A DNA stretch of 64,000 nucleotides from Erwinia sp. JUb26 (GTDB taxonomy: Bacteria; Pseudomonadota; Gammaproteobacteria; Enterobacterales; Enterobacteriaceae), in contig NZ_RJVB01000013.1 in NCBI RefSeq assembly GCF_003751505.1, positions 1 through 64,000 of the forward strand, given 5' to 3'. The notes beneath the pieces are model-generated. The model saw only the letters and a list, made by a program, of their open reading frames with translations. It was not told the origin of the DNA and did not search any database. Below are positions 54,907-59,646 of this stretch, piece after piece. Every line of letters starts with the position of its first letter. The first letter of the stretch is position 1. The position numbers and the translations under genes were made by a program.

Positions 54907-54956
54907 GCGACTGGATTTGTAATCGTTAACCGATCAGTCTGCATTGCCCTCTCATT

Positions 54957-54991
54957 AACCAGGAAATAGTGCCTATTTCCTGGTTTTTTTA
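54957..54991 (+). terminator. Terminator of pldB-yigL
   Basis: A 13-bp perfect stem AACCAGGAAATAG/CTATTTCCTGGTT with TGC loop and seven T's. It marks the end of the conserved core before the accessory stretch; 54992-55188 beyond it holds no feature I can name. Confidence 0.95.
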
Positions 54992-55188
54992 TGTTCATTT
55001 ATCTCCGCGGTCTTATGAAATGTTAAACGCACTGGATAAATAATTGAATCCGTATCTGGATTTGATGTGGACTGAAACACCATGGATAATCAATGACAGG
55101 CGCGAAGTTGAGTTATCCGAGATTGACATGCATTTTTCATAGCGACATGCAGCAGAGATATAATTTTAAAAGCTCATGTTTTAAAAAA

Positions 55189-55626
55189 TTACAGTTGGGT
55201 GTCTGCACCAGGCGTATATTTTCCATCTTCATCACCATCATAACTCTTTTTATTTATGTTCAAGAAAAACTTGTTAAAACACAGACCGTATCGATGAATT
55301 GTCATAATCAGATCGCTGGGAAATCCTTGCTTAACCAGAAGCGAACGGGTCTGAAAAACTAACTGATTGTAATTTTTTTCTTTTGATCCTGATGGATTTT
55401 TTCCCCAAATATTTTGGATGATTTTCTCTTTTTCAATGACGTCATTCATCAGGCAAAGGATTAACGTTTTCTGGTTTTTGCTGACCTTGGCCATAATGTC
55501 AGTGTCTTTCATGATGAGATATTTTTCTTTCAAGATAAGTTTTTCATTCTCATACTTAACCGATCTTGGATCCAGGCTATTCATCTCTACAATTTCTCTG
55601 TTTTCAAACGTGGGGATAGATGACAT
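55189..55626 (-). CDS. ToxR-type winged-helix DNA-binding protein without membrane segment
   Basis: A 145-residue protein not recognisable as a named gene. Residues about 23-118 fit the OmpR/ToxR-type winged helix: KEKIIQNIWG at 67-75, SKEKNYNQLVFQTRSLL (recognition helix) at 81-97, and DLIMTIHRYGLCF (wing) at 105-117. There is no receiver domain and no hydrophobic segment, so it would be a free cytosolic DNA binder. The coding sequence is clearly AT-rich compared with the core genes. The start is uncertain (55626, or Met15 at 55584); no strong ribosome site is visible. Divergent from the membrane-bound relative at 55914. Confidence 0.7.
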   Translation of the reverse strand: MSSIPTFENREIVEMNSLDPRSVKYENEKLILKEKYLIMKDTDIMAKVSKNQKTLILCLMNDVIEKEKIIQNIWGKNPSGSKEKNYNQLVFQTRSLLVKQGFPSDLIMTIHRYGLCFNKFFLNINKKSYDGDEDGKYTPGADTQL

Positions 55627-55913
55627 GCAAAGACAGTCTTTTTGCTAATAAGTCATTTCGTCAGGAAGAGTGTATTGTTTGTAATGGATTAACAGCAATC
55701 TACATTTCATTATTTAAGTTTTATAGATAATTATTCTATATATAATATATATATTAGTTTTATATGTCGCTTTTTAAGTCTTTTGAATTAACTGCTTGTA
55801 AAAAAATAGTGGATTTTTAATAGTGACTCTTATTTTTTTTGGTTGGCGAAGTGATGTCATCATATGCCTGTTATTACCAAGGTAGTCACTCGCTTAGTTA
55901 ATCGGGTGGGGTT
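55627..55913. promoter_or_regulatory. AT-rich divergent control region
   Basis: 287 bp between two divergent winged-helix genes, with alternating A/T runs (about 55725-55770, including TATATAATATATATATTA) that give several -10-like elements on both strands. The composition suits H-NS binding and silencing, which is typical of acquired regulator loci. No gene is visible. Promoters cannot be assigned with confidence. Confidence 0.45.
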
Positions 55914-56711
55914 GTGATTTATTTAATAAATAGAATCTTAAAATATAACGCCTATGATGGAACGTTGTATTTATTGGATGGCAGCATTGATATGCTAACT
56001 CTTAGCAGGGTTGCTAATGAGTTGTTATTGCTGATGGTAGAGAATAATGAGAGTCGATTAGAAAGAGAGCATATCTTGAACGAATTATGGACCCGAAGAG
56101 GCCTGGCCTCTTCGGGTAATAATCTCAATAATTATATATCAGTGCTACGTAAAGCTCTGGCAAGTTTAGGATGCTCTGATTTGATTATTACCATTCCACG
56201 CTATGGCTTTATGTTTAGTGCAGAGATCGATGTTATTCCTGATAATGTTCAAAAAAGTAGGGCGACCAACCCATTTCAGGTCTTATATTCAAGAGAAAAC
56301 CCCTGCCATAACAAACTCAAAAAGATAATGAGTTCCACTGCTACTCTTTTTGTCACTTATAAAGTTAGTTTGTTAAAAATTCTTGTGCTGTTGTGTGTTG
56401 TTTATTCTTTTTCATTGCCATGGAGCAATGATACTCACGGTGAGTATCATTCATTTGGATTAAATAAATGCACTATTTATCTTTTAGATGCGAGAGAAAC
56501 CAACAACAAATCAGAAGGGGTTTCTTCAGTAATAAAAAAATACGTGAATGAATACCACATTAACTGTGGTCGTAAAGCGGATGTTTTTTATTGGCCTGGA
56601 AAGCATCATTTAACGAATGAAAGCACAATGGATAGAGAAATTTTTGCCTGGTGCGATGATAGTCATGGTGCGTCATGCATCAATTACGGTCTGTTCAAAC
56701 ACGAGAACTAA
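55914..56711 (+). CDS. Membrane-bound ToxR/CadC-type regulator (MarT/PsaE-like)
   Basis: A 265-residue protein in three parts: an N-terminal winged helix (about 1-105; REHILNELW, NNLNNYISVLRKAL as recognition helix, IITIPRYGFMF as wing), a linker, one membrane segment (about 151-170, KILVLLCVVYSFSLPW), and a periplasmic domain of about 95 residues with four cysteines (186, 218, 247, 255). This is the layout of ToxR, CadC, Salmonella MarT and Yersinia PsaE. The GTG start follows GGGTGGGG. AT-rich coding. No target operon (pilus or adhesin) lies beside it, so the regulon is unknown. The FidL-like gene starts 4 nt after its stop. Confidence 0.8.
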   Translation: MIYLINRILKYNAYDGTLYLLDGSIDMLTLSRVANELLLLMVENNESRLEREHILNELWTRRGLASSGNNLNNYISVLRKALASLGCSDLIITIPRYGFMFSAEIDVIPDNVQKSRATNPFQVLYSRENPCHNKLKKIMSSTATLFVTYKVSLLKILVLLCVVYSFSLPWSNDTHGEYHSFGLNKCTIYLLDARETNNKSEGVSSVIKKYVNEYHINCGRKADVFYWPGKHHLTNESTMDREIFAWCDDSHGASCINYGLFKHEN

Positions 56712-56715
56712 AGTC

Positions 56716-57162
56716 ATGTCTTTGATCAGGAAGCAGTATCCCGGCTGGGTGGTAATGATTATTCTCTCACTGTGCGTTCTCTGTTTTTTCAATACGGGTA
56801 AGAAGCACCGTTTTACCTGCAGGGCGCAACTGGATACCGGCTCATCGTTCGGCCAGTGTGGTCGCCGAAATCTGCTCGATCTGTTTATGGCGATGGACGG
56901 CGATGGAGACGGTTATTTAATGCTCTCGGGGAAAATGGGATGTCAGGAGAGTTCAGAAGTCATCAACGCTATTTTAGATTTCGACTATGAAAGGGAAGGG
57001 GGGAATTATGACCTGCATGTGCGAAAACACAATGTGGTGATAAGCAAACTACTCCCCCAGTTCAGCGCGGATGATTTAACGGTCGGGATCACCAGGCTTG
57101 ACGATCGGAGATATCTTCTTTCTACCGATCAATATGCATTGCTGGTGTGTAAATCGGAGTGA
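56716..57162 (+). CDS. FidL/PsaF-like membrane partner of the ToxR-type regulator
   Basis: A 148-residue single-pass protein: short cytosolic N-terminus, membrane segment at about 11-26, periplasmic domain with cysteines at 35, 48, 76 and 145 and the acidic motif DGDGDG (61-66) leading into YLMLSGK. A DG.G...LSG core after a Cys is what I recall of FidL-like proteins, encoded next to MarT in Salmonella SPI-3; ToxS and PsaF are functional analogues that stabilise the partner regulator. Start at 56716, 4 nt after the regulator, so coupled; the frame is open further back inside it. Family assignment is from memory, not a search. Confidence 0.72.
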   Translation: MSLIRKQYPGWVVMIILSLCVLCFFNTGKKHRFTCRAQLDTGSSFGQCGRRNLLDLFMAMDGDGDGYLMLSGKMGCQESSEVINAILDFDYEREGGNYDLHVRKHNVVISKLLPQFSADDLTVGITRLDDRRYLLSTDQYALLVCKSE

Positions 57163-57168
57163 CGGGAC

Positions 57169-57210
57169 AATAAGTAGCGGGATTTTTAATGGCTATTCCC
57201 GCTACTTATT
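57169..57210. terminator. Bidirectional hairpin between the fidL-like gene and glpT
   Basis: A 14-bp perfect stem AATAAGTAGCGGGA/TCCCGCTACTTATT with a 14-nt loop between two convergent genes, with A/T-rich flanks on both sides. Confidence 0.8.
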
Positions 57211-57216
57211 ATTTCA

Positions 57217-58563
57217 TTACTGAGCCTTAAGCTGTTGCTTATGCTTCTTTTCACTCATCATGGTCATCGCAAGCAGAATGACTGCCAGAACACATCCGCC
57301 GATCATCACCATAAAGCCACCGTCCCAACCAAAGTAGTCAACGGTGTACCCTACGATAGCGCTGGCAGCAACAGACCCACCCAGATAGCCGAACAGGCCG
57401 GTAAAGCCAGCGGCAGTCCCCGCCGCTTTTTTCGGTGCCAGTTCCAGTGCATGCAGGCCAATCAGCATCACCGGACCATAGATCAGGAATCCAATCACCA
57501 TCATACAGGCCATATCTACACCAGGATTACCCGCTGGATTCATCCAGTAGACGATAGTGGCGATGGTCACCAGGGTCATAAAGAAGACGCCGGTAGCGCC
57601 GCGATTGCCTTTGAACACTTTATCTGACATCCAGCCACACAGCAGAGTGCCGGGAATACCCGCATACTCATAGAAGAAGTATGCCCACGAGGATTTATCC
57701 AGCGTGAAGTGCTTCACTTCTTTCAGATAGGTGGGTGACCAGTCGAGCACGCCGTAACGCAGCAGATAAACAAACACGTTTGCCAGTGCGATATACCACA
57801 GTAGTTTGTTTGGCAGAATGTACTGGGTGAAAATCTGCTTCGCGGTCAGCTCTGTTTCATGCTTTTCATCATAGTCCGGCGGATAATCGTTTTTGTACTC
57901 TTCGATCGGAGGCAGGCCACAGGATTGCGGCGTGTCGCGCATCAGGGCGAAAGCGATAATGGCGATCAGAATGGCACCGAATGCCGGCATGTAAAGTGCA
58001 GCTTTCCAGTCGTTAAACCAGGCCATACCCAACAGGAACAGCAGCGGAGGGATACCGCCCCCAACGTTATGCGCACAGTTCCATACGGAAACGATGCCAC
58101 CGCGTTCTTTCTGCGACCACCAGTGAACCATCGTGCGGCCGCAAGGCGGCCATCCCATACCCTGGAACCATCCGCACAGGAACAGCAGAACGAACATCAC
58201 CATAATGCTGGAGGTTGCCCAGGGTACAAAACCCATGAACAGCATCACTAACGCGGCAAGAATCAGTCCGGCAGGCAGGAAGACGCGTGGGTTTGAACGG
58301 TCAGATATTGAACCCATAATAAATTTGGAAAAACCGTAGGCTATCGAGATGCCTGACAGCGCAAATCCCAAGTCCCCGCGTGAAAAACCCTGTTCAACGA
58401 GGTAGGGCATCGCCAGCGCAAAGTTTTTACGCACGAGATAATAGGCGGCGTAGCCGAAGAAAATCCCCAGAAAGATCTGCCAGCGCAGCTTGCGATACAG
58501 TGGATCAACGCGGCTGACATCAACGCGTGGCTGATGTGCTGCGGGTTTAAAAATACTTAACAT
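57217..58563 (-). CDS. glpT: sn-Glycerol-3-phosphate:phosphate antiporter GlpT
   Basis: A 448-residue major-facilitator protein of the organophosphate:phosphate antiporter family with 12 membrane segments. Long stretches are identical to E. coli GlpT ([53 protein letters not shown]). It imports glycerol-3-phosphate and is the usual fosfomycin entry route. The start at 58563 (MLSIFKP) matches E. coli. In E. coli glpT is followed by glpQ and is divergent from glpACB far from this region; here it stands alone. Confidence 0.96.
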
Positions 58564-58639
58564 TACGGACCCCATGGCTCAGGTAACGAAATCCATGCCT
58601 GGCTGAGATGAAATGCAAACAGTTTCCCTGGTTATGGTA

Positions 58640-58659
58640 AATGTTCCATTTCGAAAGCA
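58640..58659. promoter_or_regulatory. Candidate GlpR operator 1 (glpT leader)
   Basis: AAATGTTCCATTTCGAAAGC fits the GlpR consensus WATGTTCGWTWWCGAACATW at about 16 of 20 positions. It lies between the expected start of transcription and the glpT ATG. Confidence 0.55.
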
Positions 58660-58753
58660 GCGTGGCGATTTTCGAAGAACTGGTTGTGAATTAGTGCGCG
58701 AATGTTACATTTTTATGACGAAATGGCTATATCTGCATCATTAAATGACGTGA

Positions 58754-58773
58754 TATTTTCGTATGCGAACTAT
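58754..58773. promoter_or_regulatory. Candidate GlpR operator 2 (glpT promoter)
   Basis: TATTTTCGTATGCGAACTAT keeps the TCG/CGAAC core of the GlpR palindrome and directly adjoins the CRP site, where a repressor would block the promoter. Further TTCG/TGTTAC half-sites are scattered between 58668 and 58715. Confidence 0.5.
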
Positions 58774-58774
58774 A

Positions 58775-58796
58775 TTTTGTGACTGGTATCACACTA
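58775..58796. promoter_or_regulatory. CRP-binding site upstream of glpT
   Basis: The core TGTGACTGGTATCACA (58778-58793) is a perfect TGTGA-N6-TCACA. It is the strongest CRP match in the window and fits cAMP-dependent glpT expression. It is about 220 bp from the glpT start, so either the leader is long or more than one promoter exists. The following DNA up to yehS (58797-59078) shows only a weak hairpin at 59034-59054 (TAACGCC/GGCGTTA), possibly the yehS terminator. Confidence 0.85.
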
Positions 58797-59078
58797 ATGG
58801 ATCGGTCCAATCCCGGTTTTTTTGGGTTTTGGCGGGCTATATCCGAAATGGAGAGTGATTTAACGCTGGCAATACATTTCCATAAAAAACAGAGGGATTA
58901 ACTCGTAAGATTAATGATAGTTAACGTTTAACCCATTAATTTTAAGGGATATACCGCGATCGTCAAAAATGATCGCTACGCTATCATCGCTGATATTAAC
59001 AGGGCTGAGGGGGGTGTCCGTGTTTAATGAAACTAACGCCCGGTTAAGGCGTTAATTATCTGAAATAAATTGGGATAT

Positions 59079-59549
59079 TTACTTTTTAGCTGGGCGAATT
59101 TTCATCGCAAGGCCTTTAAGGAAATTGCGGAGAATTTGATCGCCACACTCACGATAGTTTTTATGGCCAGGCTTACGGAATATCGCACCAATTTCTGATG
59201 GCCCTACCGCAAAATCGGCGCTTTTTAGCAGATCAATAATGTCGGTGGTTTTTAAATCGAAGGCGACGCGCAGTTTTTTCATGATGATGTTGTTAGTCAT
59301 CTTGCGCTCAATTGACGGCACCGGCGCGTCTTCACTTTTACCGCGACGCTCAAAAATCAGACCGTTTAGGAAATAGCCCATAACGACATCCGGGCAGGGG
59401 CGATAGCCTGGCTCATCTTCTTTTTTCAGGAAGCTGTGCACTTCAGCTTCGGCCACTTCGCTCTCTGCCAGCGCCAGAATGCTCACCACTTTGGCATCGC
59501 TTAGATCCAGCATGTAACGCACGCTGCGCAGGACATCATTATTCGTCAT
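59079..59549 (-). CDS. yehS: DUF1456 family protein YehS
   Basis: A 156-residue protein made of two similar DUF1456 repeats (NNDVLRSVRYMLDL... and MTNNIIMKKLRVAFDL...), each with CPD/CGD-type ends (YRPCPDVV, YRECGDQIL). Equal in length to E. coli YehS, which lies elsewhere in that genome. Function unknown. The start at 59549 is preferred because GAAGAGAG precedes it; an ATG five codons upstream is possible. Confidence 0.92.
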   Translation of the reverse strand: MTNNDVLRSVRYMLDLSDAKVVSILALAESEVAEAEVHSFLKKEDEPGYRPCPDVVMGYFLNGLIFERRGKSEDAPVPSIERKMTNNIIMKKLRVAFDLKTTDIIDLLKSADFAVGPSEIGAIFRKPGHKNYRECGDQILRNFLKGLAMKIRPAKK

Positions 59550-59614
59550 AAATACTCTCTTCATTGAAACTATTGCAGTGAGCGCATTATAGAGCCAATT
59601 GAGCGGTTAGACAG

Positions 59615-59638
59615 GAAAAACCGCCAGCCTTCGCTGGC
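59615..59638 (-). terminator. Terminator downstream of metR
   Basis: On the minus strand a 7-bp stem CGCCAGC/GCTGGCG with 4-nt loop is followed by GGTTTTTCC, giving a five-T run 9 bp after the metR stop. Confidence 0.88.
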
Positions 59639-59646
59639 GAAGTGCT

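Follow-up and report, generated by a model that had tools for sequence, protein, structure and literature searches.

Co-component systems such as VtrA/VtrC, ToxR/ToxS, PsaE/PsaF and MarT/FidL, as described in the parts of Kinch et al. (2022, PMC9214523) drawn on here, are encoded by cassettes in which the gene for a membrane-tethered winged-helix regulator is followed by the gene for a membrane-anchored, lipocalin-like periplasmic partner; overlap of the two genes is usual, and exceptions are named. In Yersinia, PsaE/PsaF is an inner-membrane pair that adjoins the chaperone-usher fimbrial operon under its control (PMC9820224). The portions of that paper used here name no soluble third protein, and, unlike PsaE/PsaF, the pair considered below does not lie beside a fimbria.

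Here, we analysed a stretch of 64,000 nucleotides from Erwinia sp. JUb26 (the window), whose slot between yigL and glpT holds genes for a membrane regulator (MEM), its putative periplasmic partner (FID) and a soluble winged-helix protein (SOL), together called a trio. We propose, with a probability of about 0.4, that the trio is a fimbria-control module separated from its fimbrial operon, in which MEM-FID would act on a DNA site and set SOL, and SOL would relay the signal in trans. An earlier reading made from the letters alone (the sequence-only reading) had described a minus-strand ORF, a plus-strand ORF and a third ORF coupled to the latter, and all three exist.

MEM (55914..56711, plus strand, GTG start) encodes a 265-aa winged-helix regulator that is anchored in the membrane, as had been claimed: it matches Trans_reg_C over the cut-off (1.5e-9), and ~100 residues follow its single strong hydrophobic segment (maximum 2.26 at residue 145). 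The periplasmic tail has four cysteines; the cysteines of MEM lie at 161, 186, 218, 247 and 255, with two more. FID (56716..57162, plus strand) is directly downstream in the same orientation, starting 4 nt past the MEM stop, and encodes a 148-aa ToxS/VtrC/FidL-like co-component predicted to consist of one membrane helix and a lipocalin-like barrel. Its predicted model (three aligned sequences, mean pLDDT 76.3) places the N-terminal membrane helix at residues 10-25 and gives the periplasmic barrel eight strands. Foldseek matched this model to ToxS (8u2f, 2.9e-4), and in VIA-align the B chains of 8alo and 5kev reached Z scores of 11.2 and 11.0, respectively; the top five VIA-align entries were all ToxR-ToxS, VtrA/VtrC or ToxS structures (Z 10.1-11.2), with other lipocalin-like entries close behind (9.0-9.6). 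The FID sequence had no relevant match among solved structures. Neither this FID nor five other trio FIDs reached the curated cut-off of Pfam FidL_like (PF15941), so FID is not classed as a member of that family. On the other hand, a profile of eight trio FIDs matched a profile of 14 FidL proteins of the genus, 12 of them over the FidL_like cut-off, at 97-99%, compared with 0.1, 2.0 and 0.1% for three control profiles. The proposed FidL-like identity of FID thus survives as a probable distant relationship by profile and fold, and not as family membership in Pfam. The testable features of the published kind of co-component signalling pair are present, and as modelled MEM-FID is such a pair. FID and glpT converge, and an inverted repeat between their ends (57170..57209) reads as a possible shared terminator, and similar repeats were seen by eye at the same ends in three other genomes (G013, G007 and G001).

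SOL (55189..55584, minus strand) encodes a 131-aa soluble winged-helix protein. Its start probably lies at the ATG at 55584 and not at 55626, because orthologues align from that Met; the upstream extension of the longer frame from 55626 has two stops in G007. Trans_reg_C scored below its cut-off on the window's SOL (19 against 26.2 bits, E 0.0015), and two of the seven other trio SOLs scanned passed it. The predicted model (mean pLDDT 75.8) is a complete ToxR/PhoB/CadC-type winged helix in the order E9-12 E16-19 E22-25 E31-33 H36-46 H52-60 H66-85 E93-96 E100-103, with all features of the OmpR/PhoB/ToxR fold, namely a four-strand N-terminal sheet, three helices and a C-terminal hairpin. Its best match in the PDB, and the sole one at E <=0.001, was PhoB (1gxp, 8.1e-4), and the DNA-binding domains of PhoB, SaeR, TcpP, ToxR and CadC were among the 50 matches listed. 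No membrane segment was found in any of ten trio SOLs examined, this one included. The description of SOL as a soluble winged helix is therefore borne out by predicted fold and by the lack of a membrane segment, and not by the Pfam score. By eye, a short motif around (I/L)(Y/N)(N/K)D often closes the C-terminal tail of trio SOLs from outside the slot, and slot orthologues do not have it (alignment A5). With respect to base composition, SOL (35% GC), the SOL-MEM gap (30%) and MEM (36%) are AT-rich against the window (55%), as had been noted for the whole cassette; FID, at 48%, departs from this.

The slot was read in 22 genomes of the genus, all with yigL (15 further genus genomes lie outside this count). 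Five carry the cassette, namely the window genome (G000), Pantoea coffeiphila 1480 (G007), G013 and two Erwinia MAGs (G001 and G004). The slots of the other 17 hold glpQ (9), 49-186 bp only (7) or a 5.4-kb insertion (1); no yigM-like ORF was seen among them, ORFs being judged by eye, and no glpQ was found in the stretches searched of the carriers. Given these contents, the cassette stands where relatives have glpQ or nothing, and the claim that it replaced yigM is not supported. In the window (54907-59646), as in the 21 other genus genomes read, glpT lies between yigL and metR, and many of these genomes have lost glpQ. A search of the slot for fimbrial remnants returned noise (best E-value 0.034).

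G007 and G013 have orthologues of SOL, MEM and FID in the window's order; dN/dS is well below 1, and identity to the window is 69-71%, 52% and 56-60%, respectively, against 97-99% for YigL and GlpT. In G001, a fragmented MAG, SOL is intact (76%), MEM is truncated and FID is frameshifted; in G004, SOL is ~58% and MEM ~37% identical to the window, and no FID was detectable. SOL is the best conserved of the three among slot orthologues, with dN/dS of 0.04-0.09 (3 of 6 pairs defined) compared with 0.25-0.29 for MEM and 0.12-0.23 for FID (2 of 3 pairs defined), ratios that are rough because synonymous sites are near saturation. SOL as a decayed copy of MEM, which the sequence-only reading had itself named as an objection, was ruled out: SOL forms a distinct, better conserved clade and is intact where, in G001, the other two genes are broken. 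Synonymous divergence was 1.3-3.2 in the cassette genes (8 of 12 pairs defined) and 0.6-0.9 in yigL and glpT, a difference that fits exchange or acquisition. Acquisition, also claimed earlier, is further suggested by AT-richness and patchy presence, although five genus members share the slot. The same genomes bear on whether the window's cassette is a decaying remnant without function, as the lack of an adjoining fimbrial gene, the damaged genes of G001 and the undetected FID of G004 might suggest. Against this, all three genes are open in G000, G007 and G013 with low, if rough, dN/dS, and a block of the intergenic region is conserved (see below); we consider decay very unlikely.

A SOL profile found relatives in 71 of 392 genomes of the family at E 1e-8, mostly of a non-trio type. 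Outside the slot, trios occur in Erwinia persicina (G034) and in G236, G239, G401, G444, G790, G802 and G803, and also on plasmid p14VA2 of Serratia marcescens (AP028479.1). The SOL of p14VA2 (L308 4983-5390) has no entry in the annotation listed, and MEM and FID overlap there by one base. An order-wide search for more trios matched 3 of 394 genomes, with no new trio seen by eye among the matches. SOL with MEM thus recurs in 14 loci, the five slot loci included; FID is intact in 12 (not G004 and G001), and SOL and MEM are divergent in 12, all three genes pointing in one direction in G401 and G803. In quick trees with long branches, ten trio SOLs fell into one clade (SH-aLRT 99), and nine usable trio MEMs into another (SH-aLRT 85), apart from the MEMs of MEM-FidL loci that have no SOL. 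The sequences therefore support the inheritance of SOL, MEM and the ToxS/FidL-like partner as a three-part unit, and the three-part system postulated in the sequence-only reading is upheld by this co-inheritance in the trees and across the 14 loci.

The trios elsewhere mostly adjoin chaperone-usher fimbrial genes, and that of the window's clade is orphaned; the earlier statement that no target lies beside the pair is true of the window and not of its relatives. Ushers were checked by profile in 17 genomes, and among the matches listed an usher gene lies within ~6 kb of the trio in G034, G236, G444 and G401. Usher or chaperone ORFs were seen by eye near the trios of G790, G802 and G803, usher, chaperone, subunit and gsp genes of unannotated loci being named by eye from their ORFs. 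The G239 locus ends at a contig end, and no fimbrial gene was seen within 5 kb of the p14VA2 trio. The window genome has its matching fimbrial operon on contig C5. The regulator next to this operon is a different MEM, whose partner is FidL-like (26.2 bits, cut-off 27), and the operon's usher forms a clade (100/99) with those of the G034 and G236 trios, at 67-69% identity. The C5 locus (L241 8734-11549, G000:C5) also includes an FKBP-domain protein of 768 aa, a lipoprotein-like ORF of 170 aa and an ORF of 209 aa that resembles the LuxR-type protein of the G401 locus.

The most conserved 80 columns of the SOL-MEM gap in four slot orthologues (55683..55762) include 36 invariant ones, and 1 of 5000 column shuffles was equally conserved. 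When five sub-blocks of the intergenic alignment were compared with the other trios, the one containing the 17-mer was found again in all five gaps (0 of 60 shuffles for each), and the remaining blocks showed no clear recurrence, a longer block around the 17-mer excepted. In all 14 trio loci the site lies upstream of SOL and is a direct repeat of two same-strand ATAGATTTTTATTCTGA-like 17-mers 30 or 31 bp apart. In the window, copy 1 (ATAGATAATTATTCTAT, 55723..55739, plus strand, 4 consensus mismatches) and copy 2 (TTAGTTTTATATGTCGC, 55754..55770, plus strand), 31 bp from copy 1, score 20.0 bits as a pair with their own lineage left out (0 of 500 shuffles). Matrices built in this way found the pair in each of the first ten loci at 17.8-32.3 bits (0 of 500 shuffles each). 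As the 17-mer was picked after the first nine loci had been seen, the four later-found trios, which were held out, are the fair test; the pair is present in all four at 20.9-33.5 bits (0 of 1000 shuffles each), and all pick 30 when the spacing is free between 17 and 60 bp. Shuffles were of single bases in the sub-block recurrence test and of two-base blocks in the lineage-left-out and held-out tests. In a search over 17-60 bp, the best second copy was exactly 30 or 31 bp away in nine of ten loci, and in G034 this spacing was second best. In the averaged offset profile -31 was highest with -23 nearly as high, and the two copies in the window rank among the weaker ones, both of which we counted against SOL as a relay. 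The tandem site is oriented opposite to SOL in 14 of 14 loci, and in G401 and G803, where MEM is not divergent, it lies upstream of SOL and not of MEM. The 17-mer was rejected as a palindrome, 2800 of 5000 column permutations being equally symmetric, and sigma-70-like sites were as frequent as expected (7 found, 7.2 expected).

The site also occurs at MEM-FidL loci that have no SOL (G000 C5, G013 C4, G011 C9 and G032). Five of 14 fimbrial or MEM upstream regions scored at least 15 bits: those of MEM in G000 C5 (20.0) and G013 C4 (17.3), that of the fimbria in G013 C4 (21.4), and the MEM-fimbria gaps of G011 C9 (27.8) and G032 (15.5). The fimbrial regions of G000 C5 and G007 C8 (11.2) and two other G011 regions (8.6 and 7.4) scored lower, as did the G000 C2 and C1 regions (-11.7 and -9.9). 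Several of the results away from trios count against the relay. The site is absent upstream of the fimbrial major subunits of G034 (5.8 bits), G239 (likely fimbria, 0.6) and G401 (2.3), so that these fimbriae are unsupported as SOL targets; at MEM of G013 C4 a spacing of 39 beats 31; and two strong pairs (27.5 and 32.5 bits) precede an RTX/BapA-like gene of G401 (L254 8029-8345), so the site is not confined to SOL. This gene lies ~10 kb from the G401 trio and is a possible non-fimbrial target. Across 950,745 bases of loci, 13 pairs of at least 11 bits were listed outside ten trio sites, compared with 6 in shuffled sequence. Genome-wide, a single 15-mer gave 11 matches in G000 and 11 for the reversed control, with the trio site not among them, which again speaks against the relay; the pair pattern gave 61 matches in four genomes and 80 for its reversed control. 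When 17 of these 61, AT-rich and picked by eye, were scored, six reached 15 bits, namely four trio sites, G013 C4 (20.8) and G000:C1:494525 (16.0). The site thus marks trios reliably and, alone, leaves fimbrial control unexplained.

The genes, predicted folds, co-inheritance, linkage and repeated site were obtained by computation. From these we infer the binder of the site, the sign of regulation, the cue and the targets, and with them all steps past the DNA site. MEM and FID would form an inner-membrane co-component receptor in which the FID barrel pairs with the periplasmic tail of MEM and senses a cue, and the cytoplasmic winged helix of MEM would read the signal out on DNA. Because the site occurs with MEM where SOL is absent, MEM is the likelier binder, and because the site follows the upstream region of SOL, SOL is the likelier target; together these suggest a relay from receptor through SOL to targets in trans. 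MEM would act on the tandem 30/31-bp site and so set the level of SOL, and SOL, which shares the fold and is free in the cytosol, may carry the signal to promoters poorly accessible to a protein tethered to the membrane. The first candidate target in relatives is the neighbouring chaperone-usher fimbria. In the window genome targets would probably lie in trans, the first candidate being the C5 fimbrial locus, whose MEM promoter region has the same kind of site.

The operator could also be read as that of an antagonist or feedback repressor, with SOL binding MEM's tandem site untethered and damping both its own gene and MEM. The fold shared with MEM, the divergent promoters flanking the site in most loci and the retention of the site in every trio are consistent with such a role, yet the site is also found at MEM-FidL loci without SOL and, where the two genes are not divergent, stands before SOL only. 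We regard this role as unlikely, and the operator data fit SOL as a downstream relay at least as well as an antagonist or co-regulator.

Relatives of SOL also directly precede gspC/gspD-like genes of type II secretion (L098, L099, L217, L218, L220, L223-L226, L228, L229, L330 and L331; L307 7001-7258). The gsp genes are annotated in L307, the one record in which annotation confirmed them, and were recognised by eye in the other secretion-linked loci. These relatives are of the same short winged-helix family as SOL and look like an uncharacterised family of regulators linked to secretion; on a plasmid of Pantoea sp. SOD02 the annotation is hypothetical. They differ from trio SOLs in forming a separate clade, some with a C-terminal membrane segment, and in having no strong tandem site. 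None of 18 upstream regions of non-trio SOL relatives reached 10 bits, and upstream of the type-II-secretion-linked SOL of L330 (G802) lies a weaker pair of the opposite orientation (13.6 bits), a further point counted against the relay; at relatives linked to type II secretion the site is weak or absent. In four loci (L215, L216, L332 and L334), MEM, FID and SOL of another clade precede type II secretion genes and all point the same way; these loci have no tandem site (0 of 7 regions reach 10 bits), and the SOL of L215 has a C-terminal membrane segment. The window genome has a 196-aa SOL relative of its own (L104 6914-7504, G000:C10), which has a C-terminal membrane segment and adjoins a prepilin-peptidase-like ORF, with no gspD-like gene seen by eye in the stretch. 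As the secretion-linked relatives often have no MEM, the SOL family can evidently work without it, and SOL might be inherited together with MEM-FID and yet control a regulon of its own, the two acting in parallel on the same surface structure. The separate clade of the trio SOLs, and a tandem site that accompanies them and not the non-trio SOLs scored, argue against this, and we hold it to be rather improbable.

The reading we prefer, in which MEM-FID sets SOL and SOL acts in trans, would amount to a new architecture: the conserved direct target of a membrane co-component receptor would be a gene for a soluble protein related to the receptor's own DNA-binding domain, reached through a tandem 30/31-bp site that travels with that gene. 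The signal would be handed to a diffusible protein, and a module cut loose from its fimbria would still act in trans. We put this forward tentatively. In the literature searched we found neither a soluble third member nor the tandem site described; this is weak evidence of absence, as most subscription journals lie outside it. ToxR-type regulators raise the question of how a transcription factor tethered to the membrane controls promoters far away, and a soluble relative beside the receptor, with a conserved site tying both together, would be a direct and testable answer if true. The site also offers a way to reach the targets of co-component systems, the proteins of which diverge fast. The orphaned trio would be a natural case of a fimbrial control circuit apart from its fimbria.

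Control of a second regulator by a membrane pair, as in the proposed relay, is described in the parts of the sources used here for VtrA/VtrC, which act on VtrB (PMC10140157), and for TcpP/ToxR, which act on toxT (PMC11323476). What sets SOL apart from the second regulators of these cascades is that it is a soluble winged helix of a single domain, with its gene adjacent to those of the pair; VtrB is membrane-bound, and ToxT is of another protein family. With the co-component systems, as covered in the portions of PMC9214523 used here, the locus shares gene layout and fast divergence, and several of those systems regulate adhesins or secretion systems; they are described as two-gene cassettes, whereas the present unit also includes a gene for a soluble winged helix and a tandem site.
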